Positions 14,768 to 23,429 of a stretch of DNA of 64,000 bases are shown piece by piece. The DNA lies in contig NZ_NIDE01000011.1 of NCBI RefSeq assembly GCF_002197845.1, positions 124,001 to 188,000 on the forward strand, in the 5' to 3' direction. Below the pieces are notes generated by a model. That model was not told the origin of the DNA. It saw only the letters and a program-made list of their open reading frames with translations, and searched no databases. The position numbers were made by a program, and so were the translations under genes. Origin of the DNA: Fimbriiglobus ruber (lineage in GTDB: Bacteria > Planctomycetota > Planctomycetia > Gemmatales > Gemmataceae). The number at the start of each line of letters is the position of its first letter. Position 1 is the first letter of the stretch.

Positions 14768-16993
14768 TCACACGTGGTCGGTGATGAAGCGGGCGATCTG
14801 GTACGTGGCGAAGGCGGCGACGTAAGCCAGCACGGTCATGTAGACGAACGTGAACGCCGGCCACCGCCAGCTCCGCGTCTCCCGCTGGATGACGGCGAGC
14901 GTCGAGGCGCACTGGCAGCAGAGTGCGAAGAAGACCAGCACCGAGAGGGCGATCGCGATGGTATACTTGCCCTGGGCGGGGTCGCGGTTCCATTCGGCGT
15001 GAATCGCCCCTTGCAACGTTTTCTCCGCCTCATCGTCCTTGACTTCGCCGGCTTCGTAAATGATCCCGAGTGTGCCGACGATCACCTCGCGGGCCGGGAA
15101 GCTCGCGAGGACCGCCATGCCGATCCGCCAGTCCCACCCGAGCGGCGCGAACACCGGCTCCATCGCCCGCCCGGCCTGGCCGAGGTAGCTGCCGCGCTTC
15201 CACTCCGCGTTCAGGCGGTTCGCCTCCCGCACGGCGTCGGTCGAAATTTGCTCCAGGTCGTCCGGGACCGGGCGGCCGGCGTCGGTCACCTCCTTGATCC
15301 GCTCCTTGGCTTCGTCGGCCTTTTCCTTTTGCTCGGCAATCAGGGTCTCGTACCGCTGGCCGTGGGCGTCCTTGTACGGGAAATAAAGGAACGCCCAGAC
15401 GATGATCATCGACGCCAGAATCAGCGTACCGGCCCGCTTGAGGAACGCCCAGGCGGAGTCGTGGACCCGTCGGGCCACGGTGTACAGCGACGGCCGCTTG
15501 TACGCCGGCAGTTCCATCACAAACAGCGGCGGCGCCCCGCGGAGGAGTGTCCGCTTGAGCAGGAGCGCCACCAGCGGGGCGACTGTGAACCCGATCATGT
15601 ACAGCCCGAACATCGCCAGGCCGGGCACCCATCGAGAAAACCCGCTGCTCAAAAACGCCCCGATCAGCAGGCTGTACACCGGCAGCCGGGCCGAGCAACT
15701 CATCAGCGGGGCGACCAGGATCGTCGCCAGCCGATCCCGGCGGTGTTCGATCACCCGCGTCGCCATGATCCCCGGCACCGCGCACGCGACGGACGACAGC
15801 AGCGGGATGAACGACTTGCCGCTCAGCCCGCACTTGCTCATCAGGCGGTCCATCAAAAAGGCCGCCCGGGCCATGTACCCGCAGTCTTCGAGGATCGCGA
15901 TGAACGCGAACAGGAGCATGATCTGCGGTAGGAACGCGATCACGCTGCCGACCCCGCGCAGCACCCCGTCGGTCAGCAGTGACCGGGCCGGGCCGGGTGT
16001 TACGTGAGATTCGATCGCACCGACGACGTAGTCGATTCCCCCGTCGATCAGATCCTTCGCCGGGGTCGCGATCTGGAAAATCGCCTGGAACATGAGGAAC
16101 ATCACGACCAGAAAGACCAGCGTGCCCCACACCTTGTTGGTGAGTACGCGGTCGATCCGGTCGGACCACGTCACGGCCCGCTGCGTCGGCTTGGTCACGG
16201 CCCGCGCGGTCGCGGCGCGGACCCAACCGTACCGCGCCCGGGCTTCGACGCCGGGAACCGCGCATCCGGCCGCGGCCAGTCGTCCGCGGGTAGCAGTGAG
16301 GGTCGCCGTCAGCGACGGCCCGTGGGTGCCGACGAGCCACTGCTCCGTGTACCCGCCGACATCCAGAATCGCTCGCCGGGTCAGGAATTCGGGCGTCGCG
16401 GCGCCGAGTTTCTCGCCCAACGCGGCCGCCTCATCCGAGAAGGCGTCCGGCAGCTTCGGCCCACCCGCCGGTGCGGCGGCGCCCGCTGCGACCCGGAGGG
16501 CGTCTCGCAACTCGTCCAGTCCGGCCCCGGTGTTCGCCTGGATCACCACCACCCGGAGGCCGGTTTCCTTCGCCAGCGCCTGGGCGTCGATCACGATGCC
16601 CTGAGCCTTGGCCACATCGATCATGTTCACGGCGAGGACGACCGGCCGGCCGAGTTCCATGACCTGGGTGGTCAGGTAGAGGTGGCGGTCGAGGTTCGAG
16701 GCGTCCACGACCGAGAGGATGACATCCGGCCGCGGCTCCTCCGGTCGGCGGCCGAGGAGCAGGTCGACCGCGACCATTTCGTCCGGACTACGCGGCGCGA
16801 GGCTGTACGTCCCGGGCAGGTCGATGAGTTCAAACTCGGTGTCCCGGTCGGTGAACCGGCCCTTCTTCATCTCGACGGTGACGCCCGGGTAGTTGCCGAC
16901 GTGCTGGCGCAGCCCGGAAAGAGCATTAAATAAGGTCGATTTCCCGGCGTTCGGGTTGCCGACCAGTGCGATCTTGACGGTAACCGGTGGCAT
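14768..16993 (-). CDS. feoB: Ferrous iron transport protein B
   Basis: 741 residues, normal for FeoB. N-terminal G domain with GNPNAGKST (12-20), DLPGTYSL (switch II region, near 58) and NMID (near 118). Residues about 280-740 form the membrane core: two Gate-type regions (ILEDCGYMARAAFLMDR and a C-terminal equivalent), the SSVACAVPGIMATR segment and CCQCASTLAVIQRETRSWRW. A charged insert (EQKEKADEAKERIKEVTD) lies between core helices. It imports Fe(II) across the cytoplasmic membrane in a GTP-dependent manner. It is preceded by two feoA-type genes and followed by the Cys-rich partner. Confidence 0.97.
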   Translation of the reverse strand: MPPVTVKIALVGNPNAGKSTLFNALSGLRQHVGNYPGVTVEMKKGRFTDRDTEFELIDLPGTYSLAPRSPDEMVAVDLLLGRRPEEPRPDVILSVVDASNLDRHLYLTTQVMELGRPVVLAVNMIDVAKAQGIVIDAQALAKETGLRVVVIQANTGAGLDELRDALRVAAGAAAPAGGPKLPDAFSDEAAALGEKLGAATPEFLTRRAILDVGGYTEQWLVGTHGPSLTATLTATRGRLAAAGCAVPGVEARARYGWVRAATARAVTKPTQRAVTWSDRIDRVLTNKVWGTLVFLVVMFLMFQAIFQIATPAKDLIDGGIDYVVGAIESHVTPGPARSLLTDGVLRGVGSVIAFLPQIMLLFAFIAILEDCGYMARAAFLMDRLMSKCGLSGKSFIPLLSSVACAVPGIMATRVIEHRRDRLATILVAPLMSCSARLPVYSLLIGAFLSSGFSRWVPGLAMFGLYMIGFTVAPLVALLLKRTLLRGAPPLFVMELPAYKRPSLYTVARRVHDSAWAFLKRAGTLILASMIIVWAFLYFPYKDAHGQRYETLIAEQKEKADEAKERIKEVTDAGRPVPDDLEQISTDAVREANRLNAEWKRGSYLGQAGRAMEPVFAPLGWDWRIGMAVLASFPAREVIVGTLGIIYEAGEVKDDEAEKTLQGAIHAEWNRDPAQGKYTIAIALSVLVFFALCCQCASTLAVIQRETRSWRWPAFTFVYMTVLAYVAAFATYQIARFITDHV

Positions 16994-17024
16994 AGGCGTT
17001 CGTGCCGGTAGAGGGGAAGCGAAG

Positions 17025-17255
17025 TCAGGCGAGGTGCGTCACGGTCACGGCGGCCGCCTCGGCCCGGCGGAGACTCAGTCGCGTGTTGCCGACGCGGATC
17101 TCGATCGGGTCGCCCAGTAGGGACACCCCGAGCACTTCCGCGACCTCGCCTTCGAGCAAGCCGATTTCGTACAGCCGTTGGACGAGGGCCGGGTCGCCCG
17201 CCAGGGTCTCGATCCGCCCGTGTTGGCCCGGCTGAAGTTGGTCCAGGGTCGCCAT
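17025..17255 (-). CDS. feoA: FeoA-family protein
   Basis: 76 residues, SH3-like FeoA domain: MATLDQLQPGQHGRIETL, then YEIGLLEGEVAEVLG, DPIEIRVGNTRLSLRRAEA. The L-x-E-x-G-L-x-x-G pattern and the R-V-x-x-x-x-L-x-L-R-x-x-E-A end are typical. It lies 31 bp upstream of feoB and 1 bp after the other feoA-like gene. Expected to bind and regulate FeoB in the cytoplasm. Confidence 0.9.
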   Translation of the reverse strand: MATLDQLQPGQHGRIETLAGDPALVQRLYEIGLLEGEVAEVLGVSLLGDPIEIRVGNTRLSLRRAEAAAVTVTHLA

Positions 17256-17256
17256 T

Positions 17257-17484
17257 TCAGGCGACAACCGGCGAGACGAGGATCTGCGAGCAGTCGCTCC
17301 CGCGGAGACACAGCTTGCAGTTGGCGACTTGCAGGAGACAGGGCGAGCCCGCTTGCAGGACTTGTAGGCGACAGCCTTCACGGATGCCGAGTTCCGCGAG
17401 GCGAACGACCCAACCCGGGTCGCCGGTGACTTCCGCGACGTCGGCGTGTTCGCCGGCTTTCAGCATGTCGAGCGGCAGCAACAT
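17257..17484 (-). CDS. Second FeoA-family protein, first gene of the feo operon
   Basis: 75 residues from ATG 17484 (an in-frame TTG lies two codons earlier). FeoA-type SH3 domain: LPLDMLKAGEHADVAEVTGD, RLAELGIREGCRLQVLQAGS, CLRGSDCSQILV. It is more cysteine-rich than its neighbour (C near 51, 59, 61 and 67), an arrangement seen in FeoA paralogues that may sense metal or redox state. Its stop is 1 bp before the next feoA gene. Confidence 0.85.
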   Translation of the reverse strand: MLLPLDMLKAGEHADVAEVTGDPGWVVRLAELGIREGCRLQVLQAGSPCLLQVANCKLCLRGSDCSQILVSPVVA

Positions 17485-17516
17485 GAGCAAACCTGCAAAT
17501 CGGCGGGTCGGCCTGA

Positions 17517-18945: not shown

Positions 18946-19000
18946 CCGGACATTATTGGAACGTCGACATTTGGAAAAATGTCCGGCTCGACGGTATACT
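18946..19000 (+). promoter_or_regulatory. Promoter with overlapping palindromic operator (DUF4160/DUF2442 pair)
   Basis: A sigma-70-like promoter, TTGGAA (18971-18976), 18 bp, TATACT (18995-19000), lies 25 bp before the DUF4160 ATG. The -35 is inside a perfect palindrome GACATTT-GGAA-AAATGTC (18966-18983), and CCGGACATT (18946-18954) pairs with AATGTCCGG (18978-18986) as a wider palindrome. The downstream gene pair encodes an HTH protein, so autorepression through these half-sites is likely. Confidence 0.5.
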
Positions 19001-19024
19001 GTCATCTGACGTGACAAGTTCGCC

Positions 19025-19282
19025 ATGCCCAAGGTCGCCTGCTTCCAGATACCCGGGCTGACGTGCTGGTTCTGGTCGAACGACCACGAGCCGCCACATT
19101 TTCACGTCAAGCGAGACGGGGAATGGGAACTCCGGGTCAAATTCTTGGAGAGCGTGGACCAGATGTTCGAGTTGGTGTGGGGCGCGGAACCGAAAGCGAA
19201 ACTGCTCCGCAAGATCACGCAGGCCGTGGCGGAGAACCGAATGAATTTGTTGGCCGAGTGGGAGGCGAACGTCAACCAATGA
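19025..19282 (+). CDS. DUF4160 protein (toxin-antitoxin-like partner)
   Basis: 85 residues, matching the DUF4160 family: CFQIPGLTCWFWSNDHEPPH, FHVKRDGEWELRVKF, KLLRKITQAVAENR, LLAEWEANVN. Family members carry the conserved (N/D)-D-H-x-P-P-H-(F/V)-H-V motif seen here and are usually encoded beside DUF2442 genes in candidate toxin-antitoxin loci. The TGA overlaps the ATG of the next gene by 4 bp. Biochemical activity is not known. Confidence 0.85.
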   Translation: MPKVACFQIPGLTCWFWSNDHEPPHFHVKRDGEWELRVKFLESVDQMFELVWGAEPKAKLLRKITQAVAENRMNLLAEWEANVNQ

Positions 19283-20175
19283 CCACCAAGACGCCGGCTA
19301 AGCACGCGGTAGCGTTCTACACCGCTTCCGCCCGGCTCGCCCACGCCTACCGGAGCGCGGCCAGGCGCAACAAAACTCTGGCCCGCTGCGCGGAACTTCG
19401 GGAGTTGGGCGGTGCCGCCCAATCCCACGTGGCTGGACACCATGCGCTCCAGAACGTCGTTCTCTCCCACGCGGACGACGACCATTTCGTGCTAACGAAC
19501 CCGCGCGTCGAACCGGTGGTTACCGGCGCGTTCCACGTACTTTTCACGGGACCAGCCACGCACCCCGATCAGGTAGCTCAGTGGATGCGGACGACAAACA
19601 TCCGCTCGGAAAACCGCCTTCACGTAATTAATGCCGACGATCTGGAAGGCGCGCAGGTTTCCCAATTACTCGGCCGGATCTGTTCCGCTCTCGGCGGGGA
19701 CGGCGACCGCGGCAGTATTATCGACGCCTACTTCACCGGAGGATCGTTGACCGTCCGGGGTCCGGGGCACCGCATGCTTCACGTTCCGGCGGATTCCGTC
19801 CCGGCTTTGAAAGGGCACCCGCCCCAGGTGTTGCGGAATTTCGAGATCGACCCCGACGGCTCGTTCCTCTACTGGCCCGCGCTCGATGTTCATCTGGGTT
19901 GGAATCAATTCCTGCAAGCGGTCGACCCGGCCGAGTTCCGAAGTGCCCAGCAACGGAGCAGTGGTTTCAACAAGCGGTACGGCGCGGCCATCCGCAAAAT
20001 CCGCGAGGACGCCGGGGTCGCGCAGTCGAAGGTCGTGGGGCTCACGGACCGCAAACTGCGCCGCATCGAGCATGGCGAGTGCCGGGCCACGACCACCGCA
20101 CTCGCCGCGCTGGCACGGGCTCACGGGCTTAATGCAAACGAATACCTGGAAAAACTGGCGAAGGCGATGCGGTGA
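19279..20175 (+). CDS. Long HTH/DUF2442-like partner of DUF4160
   Basis: 298 residues beginning at the ATG that overlaps the DUF4160 stop. The segment LRNFEIDPDGSFLYWPALDV, then HLGWNQFLQAVDP (about 193-230) is DUF2442-like. It is followed by an XRE-type HTH (YGAAIRKIREDAGVAQSKVV, then DRKLRRIEHGECRATTTALA). The N-terminal 190 residues (HHALQNVVLSHADDDHFVLT, NADDLEGAQVSQLLGRICSA, SLTVRGPGHRMLHVPA) are unrecognised and much longer than in ordinary DUF2442 antitoxins. Likely the antitoxin/autorepressor of the pair. Confidence 0.7.
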   Translation: MTTKTPAKHAVAFYTASARLAHAYRSAARRNKTLARCAELRELGGAAQSHVAGHHALQNVVLSHADDDHFVLTNPRVEPVVTGAFHVLFTGPATHPDQVAQWMRTTNIRSENRLHVINADDLEGAQVSQLLGRICSALGGDGDRGSIIDAYFTGGSLTVRGPGHRMLHVPADSVPALKGHPPQVLRNFEIDPDGSFLYWPALDVHLGWNQFLQAVDPAEFRSAQQRSSGFNKRYGAAIRKIREDAGVAQSKVVGLTDRKLRRIEHGECRATTTALAALARAHGLNANEYLEKLAKAMR

Positions 20176-21690: not shown

Positions 21691-22553
21691 GTCGGGAGAG
21701 GGCGGAAAGAAAAGCGCAAAATCTTCTGCCGGGTGAGCGACTTCGGGGCCAGTTTGGACCGTTCGACTGATGACATCCCGATTCAAGAAGTGGAAGACCT
21801 GTCGGGAACGTTCTTCGGCCTCGATTCTCGGGAATGTATCGTTCAGTCGGAACGCCCAACCGCGCAGAAACTACCCCCGGTCCGAGTATGCAAGTCCGTG
21901 CTCGACGACGAAACGCGGTCCACTGAGCCGACATTTTTCCGTGTAGTGATATCCTGGTCCGTCCACTGTCAGAAAACGCCTTGCAAGGTGCGAAAAGCGC
22001 AGAAATTACCTCGGGTCTCGGTTTCGAAGCCCTGGCCACCCGTCCGCGTCACGACAGGCGGTCGGACACGGCTCCCGTCTCGCCGGTCGGTGTGCGACGA
22101 GATTAGTCTGAGGTTGAAGGGGAGAAACGATCCGCCCGGATGAAGATTGGCAAACGACAAGGTTCGTCGTGAAAGAGTGGAAAATCAAAGCGCAGGCTCA
22201 TGAGACGGCCGAGGTGGAAGGGCGTAACCATCCCGCCGCAATCGCTCCCACACCGGCGCTCGGCGCGGGTCTCCGACCCCGCCGTTCGGCCCGACCGCAG
22301 GTCTCCCGGCCCACGGCGGGTGCCCATCCGGTCGGTGTCCCGTGCGGCGTGCGTCGAGCAGGGGAGACCTGCGGTCGGGCCGAACGGCGGGGTCGGAGAC
22401 CCGCGCCGAGCGCATCCAACGGCGGGGTCGGAGACCCGCGCCGAGCGCAATCCATGGCGGGGTCGGAGACCCGCGCCGAGCGCGATCCGCCCGGATGAAG
22501 ATTGGCGAACGACAAGGTACGTCGTGAGAGGGCGGAAAGAAAAGCGCAAAATC
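21691..22553. repeat. Intergenic repeat cluster (direct and inverted copies)
   Basis: The 950-bp gap between the DUF1501 and RsbW-like genes holds no supportable gene. It contains: a 33-bp sequence (GAGAGGGCGGAAAGAAAAGC and flanks) at 21691-21723 and again at 22521-22553; a ~66-bp direct repeat at 22129-22194 and 22484-22549 (start GATCCGCCCGGATGAAGATT); a perfect 51-bp inverted repeat (22256-22306 with 22363-22413); and three direct copies of a 28-bp unit (GGCGGGGTCGGAGACCCGCG and flank) at 22386, 22421 and 22456, exactly 35 bp apart. The ORFs across it are repeat artefacts. Confidence 0.75.
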
Positions 22554-22580: not shown

Positions 22581-23003
22581 TTACTCGCTGATGATGCGGA
22601 CCTTGGTCATGGTGACCACGTTGCCCCGGCCGTGGTATTCGACCGAGGTCATGAAGTTGCGGATGAGCAGGAGGCCGCGGCCGCAGGGGCGTTCGAGGTT
22701 TTCCGGGGCCGTCGGGTCGGGCACGTCGGCCGGGTTGAACCCGGGGCCCTCGTCGGTGATCTTGATGTCGAACCGCTCGGTGGTCACCGTATAGACCACG
22801 AAGACGCGGCGGTCGGGGTCGAGTTGGTTGCCATGCTTGATCGCGTTGACCAGGGCCTCTTCGAGGGCGAGCTTGATCGAAAAGATGTCGCGGTCGCCGT
22901 ACCGCGCGGACTGCAGCGCGTCTTCGATTTCCTCTTGGACCCGCCGGGCTTCGGCCAGGTCGCTCGGGATCGTGATCTCGGCGGCAATGTGCGGTTCGGC
23001 CAT
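22581..23003 (-). CDS. RsbW-like anti-sigma factor / serine kinase (HATPase)
   Basis: 140 residues with the GHKL ATPase boxes: N-box LALEEALVNAIKHGNQLD (near 46), G1 ITDEGPGFN (near 88) and GRGLLLIRNFM (near 113). This is the RsbW/SpoIIAB-type family that phosphorylates a STAS-domain anti-anti-sigma factor. The STAS gene lies 69 bp upstream on the same strand, so the two probably form a partner-switching pair. The target sigma factor is not in the window. Confidence 0.9.
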   Translation of the reverse strand: MAEPHIAAEITIPSDLAEARRVQEEIEDALQSARYGDRDIFSIKLALEEALVNAIKHGNQLDPDRRVFVVYTVTTERFDIKITDEGPGFNPADVPDPTAPENLERPCGRGLLLIRNFMTSVEYHGRGNVVTMTKVRIISE

Positions 23004-23072
23004 ATCTACCTGCCGCGGCGGGCGGGGGGCGCGACGACCGCGGCCCGGAGAGGGGCCGGCGGCCCCACGGCG

Positions 23073-23429
23073 TCAGAAGGTGTTCAGACCCGTGGTCTCG
23101 TCCTTGACGATCGTCAACATTTTATCGAGTTTCGTGATCTCGAAGATTTCCAGAATGCTCTTGGAGATGCCGCACAGGACCAGCTTGCCGCCGATGGCGC
23201 TCAGCCGCTGGTGCAGCCGGATCAGTTTGCCCAGCGCGGCACTGGACAGGAACTCGACGTTCGAGAAGTTCAGGAGCACCTTCCGCCGGCCGAGTTCGTC
23301 CACGAGCCGGAAGAGGTCGTCCCCGATCATCTGGATGTTCTGTTCGTCGAGGATCTTCTTGTCGACGAACTGGACGACGGTGATGTCACCGATTTCATCC
23401 ACGGTCAGGCGCTGACGACGGTTGGACAT
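23073..23429 (-). CDS. STAS-domain anti-anti-sigma factor
   Basis: 118 residues, single STAS domain: QRLTVDEIGDITVVQFVDKK, GRRKVLLNFSNVEF then LSSAALGKLIRLHQRL. The serine of LSSAALG (near residue 60) occupies the position phosphorylated in SpoIIAA/RsbV proteins. It is the upstream partner of the RsbW-like kinase. A SpoIIE-type phosphatase that could dephosphorylate it is encoded at 28.2-29.3 kb but appears frameshifted. Confidence 0.9.
   Translation of the reverse strand: MSNRRQRLTVDEIGDITVVQFVDKKILDEQNIQMIGDDLFRLVDELGRRKVLLNFSNVEFLSSAALGKLIRLHQRLSAIGGKLVLCGISKSILEIFEITKLDKMLTIVKDETTGLNTF

Follow-up and report, generated by a model that had tools for sequence, protein, structure and literature searches.

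DUF4160 is a little-studied toxin family, and no target is given for it in the available portions of two published accounts (PMC8198452, PMC12724237). In Dickeya dadantii 3937, dhiTA was identified experimentally as a toxin/antitoxin pair of the DUF4160/DUF2442 kind in which the toxin gene comes first and the two genes overlap, and its operon is reported to be repressed by the antitoxin and more strongly by the complex (PMC8198452). The Persistence Enhancing Module of a Thermus thermophilus plasmid is described as a DUF4160 protein (87 aa) followed by a 92-aa antitoxin categorized as DUF2442. A construct without the second ORF yielded no transformants in Thermus, hence the designation of the two ORFs as toxin and antitoxin, and in E. 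coli no effect was reported for either ORF (PMC12724237). Among the listed titles and abstract openings of open-licence papers, we found no published account of a long antitoxin that joins DUF2442 to an HTH domain.

Here we analyzed a gene pair within a 64,000-nucleotide stretch of the Fimbriiglobus ruber genome, referred to here as the window. Both genes lie on the + strand; the first encodes a DUF4160 protein of 85 aa, a putative toxin (19025-19282), and the second encodes a three-domain partner, a putative antitoxin and repressor (19279-20175). An earlier note on this DNA had described a 4-bp gene overlap and a partner of approximately 300 residues. Indeed, the four bases ATGA (19279-19282) are common to both genes and the partner is 298 aa long. 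The layout is dhiTA-like, that is, bicistronic with overlapping genes and the toxin-type gene first, the operon being judged by gene overlap only. Elsewhere in the window, genes for FeoB and FeoA (ferrous iron uptake) lie upstream of the pair on the minus strand (14768-17490). Adjoining HATPase_c_2 and STAS genes (22581-23429, minus strand) are like an anti-sigma-factor kinase and its antagonist, and positions 22170-22530 hold short GC-rich repeats, seen as the repeated peptide strings GSETRAER and ARVSDPAV in several frames.

We found that the DUF4160 protein matches Pfam family PF13711 at 44.2 bits (cut-off 23) and reaches 28.1 bits against the DhiT equivalog model NCBIfam NF048015, whose cut-off is 100; at the sequence level, it is a distant DhiT relative. 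The DUF2442 domain of the partner (residues 148-207; 19720-19899, + strand) matches PF10387 at 33.4 bits (cut-off 23.9), and in alignment A1, with E up to 1 allowed, eight of the nine members match DUF2442. The C-terminal domain (residues 234-287; 19978-20139, + strand) is of the XRE HTH type. As a single sequence it matches HTH_31 at E 2.6e-5 and 24.9 bits, slightly below the Pfam cut-off of 27, while in alignment A1 all nine members match HTH_3 and HTH_31 with E up to 1 allowed. Furthermore, modeled residues 222-298 superpose on 2b5a_C with a Z of 11.0 and an rmsd of 2.0 over 73 aligned residues, as in an XRE HTH fold. The full-length partner model has a mean pLDDT of 70.8 and a pTM of 0.57. 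The remaining residues 1-147 (19279-19719, + strand), referred to here as the N-domain, are predicted to form an alpha/beta fold. The N-terminal extension had been put at approximately 190 residues, a figure that the domain search, by placing DUF2442 at residues 148-207, reduces to about 147.

Since short DUF4160/DUF2442 pairs are published toxin-antitoxins, the pair in the window is most likely an autoregulated toxin-antitoxin. We consider it probable that it is a chromosomal unit of the dhiTA-like DUF4160/DUF2442 kind with an enlarged antitoxin.

Distribution of the long pair

Within the order, the partner was matched in 7 of 102 genomes, over its full length in six (including the source genome) and from residue 145 only in the seventh (G347). 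A search of the phylum matched the partner in 10 of 294 genomes, mostly at the HTH alone, and matches that were strong beyond the HTH came from the source genome, G277 (locus L013), and G291 (L014). A DUF2442-HTH profile matched 14 of 297 genomes in the class and added G546 (L005) and G512 (L104). Scoring in these searches was confined to the top-ranking candidates of each genome (at most 12 for DUF2442-HTH in the class and 6 in another search), so that the genome counts are lower bounds. Ten planctomycete loci with a full-length partner are considered here: the window, L005, L006, L007, L008, L013, L014, L023, L027, and L104.

A DUF4160 gene of the same subclass lies directly upstream of the long partner in all ten loci, and the partner frame is open in all ten. 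The DUF4160 frame is frameshifted in L023, carries a frameshift and a stop in L027, and has ATA in L005 where the others have the start codon ATG. Damage to the DUF4160 frame while the partner stays open is as expected of a toxin. Since most of the named loci come from metagenome-assembled genomes, the broken DUF4160 frames may also be assembly errors. Wider flanks were compared in five of the ten loci (the window and L005-L008), and the neighboring genes differ, except that the close relatives L006 and L007 share genes and that a 35%-identical DUF1501 paralogue is common to these two and the window.

DUF4160 itself was found at 42 places in 28 of the 102 genomes of the order, and 30 of these places were fetched as loci. 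Twenty of the 30 have short partners (about 80-123 aa); ten of these were run against Pfam, where all were DUF2442 with no HTH reported, and the other ten were judged by eye. Four loci are of the long type, including L055, which was placed there by its contig and coordinates and has a broken DUF4160 frame, and six were assigned to neither type (L041, L047, L048, L049, L056, and L058). The expectation that the long partner would recur near other DUF4160 genes is thus borne out at loci of the same subclass (10 of 10), but the long partner is not the usual neighbor of DUF4160 in general (4 of 30).

The DUF2442-HTH profile also matched 10 of 194 cyanobacterial genomes, over most of its length in four and in the HTH part only in six. 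Of these four, L108 and L109 have an intact upstream DUF4160 gene, 43-44% identical to that of the window. At L107/L012 the DUF4160 gene is shortened at its 5' end and the N-terminal part is shorter, which places it in neither of the two groups compared next. All loci with a complete N-terminal part, ten planctomycete and two cyanobacterial, have a DUF4160 gene, and the five loci whose fetched DNA gave no DUF4160 match at E 0.1 all lack a complete N-terminal part. A deletion on the 5' side would explain this co-occurrence as well as functional coupling would, and we draw no mechanism from it. The five genes in question (L028 (=L010), L102, L103 (=L011), L100 (=L009), and the cyanobacterial L110) are solitary DUF2442-HTH genes with no site near the operator score range, and they are possibly relics or freed regulators.

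Plasmids and phages gave no match to the partner of the window, and plasmids gave none to the cyanobacterial partner; DUF4160 alone matched 10 plasmid records at 32-39% identity. In viral contigs, 32 pattern matches included 0 relatives of the partner, and a viral fold library returned nothing at E 0.001 or better.

The candidate operator

The promoter proposed in the earlier note is present upstream of the pair on the + strand, with a -35-like hexamer TTGGAA (18971-18976) and a -10-like hexamer TATACT (18995-19000), both read by eye, at a spacing of 18. The -35-like hexamer has a similar place in relatives, by eye only. Two overlapping palindromes had been described over this promoter, and both are present. 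The wide inverted repeat, CCGGACATT-N23-AATGTCCGG (18946-18986, with the core CGG...CCG at 18947-18985), occurs at one place in the window against 0.04 expected (up to 3 mismatches), and the -10-like hexamer lies 9 bp past its core. The inner palindrome, GACATTT-GGAA-AAATGTC (18966-18983), has its right half in common with the wide one and was expected 0 times in 100 shuffles (up to 1 mismatch).

The fates of the two palindromes across relatives differ. The wide palindrome precedes the DUF4160 gene in all ten planctomycete loci with a full-length partner, two of which are close relatives and one of which (L008) has an altered arm. It also precedes the DUF4160 gene in L108 and L109, two closely related loci that are the cyanobacterial ones with both genes intact, where it reads CAGACATT...AATGTCTG at the equivalent place. 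The pattern GACAW-N18..28-WTGTC is found within 150 bp in 9 of the 10 planctomycete loci, the exception being L008 with its altered arm, compared to 2-15 occurrences per 1000 dinucleotide-preserving shuffles for each locus. When 9-nt palindromes of any sequence were considered, 120, 125, and 785 of 1000 shuffles scored as well for L006, L007, and L014, respectively. Since palindromicity at these single loci is weak, the case for an operator rests on shared sequence and position.

We derived an operator matrix in which L006/L007 and L108/L109 were each counted once, giving 10 distinct loci (nine planctomycete and one cyanobacterial) and 20 half-sites. The half-site consensus is CGGACATTTTT, in which positions 3-6 are invariant by construction because the search pattern fixes GACA and TGTC. 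At positions 1 and 2 the two arms of a locus have matching bases in all ten cases, and these bases vary from locus to locus, with A at position 1 in L006 and A at position 2 in L013 and L108. The operator core spans 36-40 bp across the distinct loci, and arithmetic from the matrix places the half-site centers about 28-32 bp apart, roughly three helical turns. The -10-like hexamer, chosen by eye in each locus, starts 9 bp after the core in eight of the ten and 8 and 7 bp after it in the other two. Our data indicate that the wide palindrome, with its symmetric arm changes, is a conserved candidate operator, kept nearly letter for letter in distant bacteria. The inner palindrome was rejected as an operator, its exact sequence being present in 6 of 120 loci that are all copies of the source locus, so that it was found in this genome only. 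By eye, GACA is seen near its place in three of the ten distinct loci (the window, L005, and L006), either overlapping the -35-like region or lying next to it.

A pattern combining the operator and the -10-like hexamer occurs at 6 places in the 102 genomes of the order, five of them at the DUF4160/partner pair and the sixth in an unrelated hairpin of G330, and its reversed control occurs at 0. The pattern was derived from such loci and thus shows specificity rather than independent proof, and it misses G338, the sixth genome that bears the pair. The core pattern CGGACATN{18,27}ATGTCCG has one place in the 12.36 Mb source genome. Over the order it has 28 places in 26 of 102 genomes, and the reversed control was found in 3 of 102 genomes; five of the 28 places were looked at, three being the pair (G000, G327, and G363) and two being G330 hairpins. 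The operators of the pair in G338, G355, and G359 are missed by the core pattern because their arms differ. The G330 hairpins (L119:630-684 and L120:1282-1342) are near-perfect, 25-30 nt long, and read CTAGCGGACATTT..., in a genome with no DUF4160 match. They look like dispersed palindromic repeats that mimic the operator pattern.

Conservation of the operator would also be seen if the pair were not a toxin-antitoxin at all but a transcription factor that controls itself and other targets, with the DUF4160 protein as a harmless co-repressor. In keeping with this, the DUF2442-HTH part is better conserved than the N-domain (mean column identity of 65% versus 49%), and the five solitary loci keep a DUF2442-HTH protein with no DUF4160 gene in the fetched DNA. 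However, we found no regulon for the partner, in that the next-best site in the window scores 11.4 compared to 35.9 for the operator and the source genome holds the single core match. Furthermore, toxicity has been described for related pairs in two published systems (PMC8198452, PMC12724237), and some loci combine a broken DUF4160 frame with an open partner frame. We therefore regard a harmless co-repressor as improbable and retain the autoregulated toxin-antitoxin as the preferred reading.

The N-domain of the partner

Residues 1-147 gave no Pfam match and residues 1-146 gave no PHROG match. Within the order, matches to the N-domain were found in 6 of 102 genomes, every one at a DUF4160/partner pair (at most 38 candidates were scored per genome). 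Over the N-domain dN falls far short of dS, as it does over the other domains, with a dN of 0.04 and a dS of 0.32 between L006 and L007 and values of 0.26 and 0.97 between the window and L005. These substitution rates indicate that the N-domain is under purifying selection. They also bear on whether the start of the partner was mis-called, in which case the true partner would be a short DUF2442-HTH protein and residues 1-147 would be untranslated. Short DUF2442-HTH genes do exist, with frames of 157-160 codons (L028 and L102). However, the N-domain frame is open in all ten loci, with an ATG at or a few bases from the end of the DUF4160 gene, and the low dN contradicts an untranslated N-terminus, a reading to which we give hardly any weight.

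Conservation is not uniform along the partner. Majority identity within the N-domain peaks over strand 4, helix 4, and strand 5 (0.70-0.74) and is about 0.45-0.48 over residues 1-83; the value for the DUF2442 and HTH domains is 0.70. Six residues are invariant over the nine rows of alignment A2, namely M1, S63, S110, R113, H115, and R133. Predicted alone, the N-domain shows alternating strands and helices with five strands; the best model (m02535786489f) has a pLDDT of 75, and the other four have 55-56. The best Foldseek E for the N-domain is 1.9e-3. VIA-align matched it to the TIR domain 4c6t_C (Z 9.0, rmsd 3.5, 129 aligned) and to CENP-M 4wau_A (Z 8.3, rmsd 3.9, 133 aligned), with small GTPases, NrdI, and receivers at Z 7-8 and other folds close behind the top at Z 7-8.5. 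With modest confidence, these models suggest an alpha/beta fold without a specific relative.

Two candidate matches were set aside, being absent from the other members: a P-loop-like stretch in L013 (nSTAND3 E 0.096, MCM E 0.023) and a KR-domain match in one member (E 0.0019; 0.086 for the N-domain of L008 alone). The stretch in L013, a distant relative, reads GMGKT and lies within its N-domain (L013:1945-2364).

In cyanobacterial partners another N-terminal stretch takes the place of the N-domain, and a comparison of planctomycete and cyanobacterial N-termini with hhalign gave no homology signal (probability 0.1%, E 0.41). Such a difference could arise if the partner were a sensor antitoxin. 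The N-domain would then receive a signal (a ligand, a phage protein, or a cellular partner) and, once engaged, the toxin and the operator would be released, making the pair a triggered stress or anti-phage switch and not a passive addiction module. The modeled alpha/beta fold is of a type that receivers, flavodoxins, TIR domains, and small GTPases also have, and residues 1-83 are less conserved than the DUF2442 and HTH domains yet under purifying selection, as expected of a changeable input domain. However, PADLOC returned nothing convincing for the pair (best E 0.046). Five of six neighboring proteins have no PADLOC match either, and the sixth, FeoB, matches LeoBC/LeoA weakly (E 7.8e-5 and 0.0045), a GTPase-type match that is expected from its G domain. 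In addition, the N-domain has no recognized catalytic or ligand motif, and its matches to TIR, CENP-M, GTPase, flavodoxin-like, and receiver structures are bunched at Z 7-9. A sensory role is the main rival of the spacer role proposed below, and we consider it possible but less likely than not.

More speculatively, the long partners might belong to a sensor-antitoxin family in which Planctomycetota and Cyanobacteria both retain one DNA code (GGACATT half-sites approximately three turns apart) and the toxin/DUF2442 core, the input domain at the N-terminus having been swapped or having changed too far to be recognized. We are inclined to doubt this. If true, the same growth switch would be wired to different signals in different lineages.

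Proposed mode of action and comparison with known systems

The suggestion of an autoregulated toxin-antitoxin-like unit with an added domain is supported by the conservation of the wide palindrome and by the position of the long partner, which in all ten loci directly follows a same-subclass DUF4160 gene, with toxicity, neutralization, and repression as its predicted elements. In the proposed unit, the 85-aa DUF4160 protein would be the toxin, as are its relatives. The partner would bind and neutralize the toxin via its DUF2442 domain, by analogy with the 92-residue antitoxin of Thermus. The C-terminal XRE HTH may bind both arms of the 41-bp palindrome. With the right arm inside the spacer between the -35-like and -10-like hexamers, bound antitoxin or complex would block RNA polymerase and repress both genes. 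Operator and HTH are both present and conserved, and repression itself is a prediction from them.

The half-sites bound by compact XRE dimers are generally spaced by about one turn of DNA. Since the arms here are approximately three turns apart, the complex would have to hold two HTHs apart on one face of the DNA. The N-domain, with strand 4, helix 4, and strand 5 best kept, would be the likeliest dimer or oligomer spacer, although this is the weakest step of the proposal.

The pair resembles dhiTA in its domain pair, in having the toxin gene first, and in an overlap of a few bases, with repression experimental in dhiTA and predicted from the operator here. It differs in that the dhiTA antitoxin is tabled as DUF2442 only and in that the DUF4160 protein of the window scores 28 bits against a DhiT model cut-off of 100. 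A candidate operator is defined for the window pair, whereas none was found for dhiTA in the available text of PMC8198452. With the Thermus module, the pair shares a DUF4160 gene followed by a DUF2442 partner; the module described in PMC12724237 is plasmid-borne, and its 92-aa antitoxin is too short for an added HTH and N-domain. Short pairs of the same order, at 20 of 30 loci, likewise have a DUF4160 gene followed or overlapped by a DUF2442-type gene, but their partners of about 80-123 aa have no N-domain, and no HTH was reported in the ten run against Pfam. Compared to these short pairs, the long unit adds a recognizable DNA-binding domain, an exact candidate operator, and an extra conserved domain, which may serve as the switch input. 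Furthermore, since the operator is kept in two phyla, the claim of autoregulation is directly testable.

Residues 222-298 of the partner have the fold of XRE regulators such as the C proteins of restriction-modification systems (C.BclI, 2b5a). In contrast to these regulators, the partner has two more domains ahead of its HTH, and the arms of the candidate operator are spaced by about 28-32 bp. Judged from sequence, what is new relative to the known pairs is a three-domain antitoxin together with a defined candidate operator whose arms lie about 30 bp apart.
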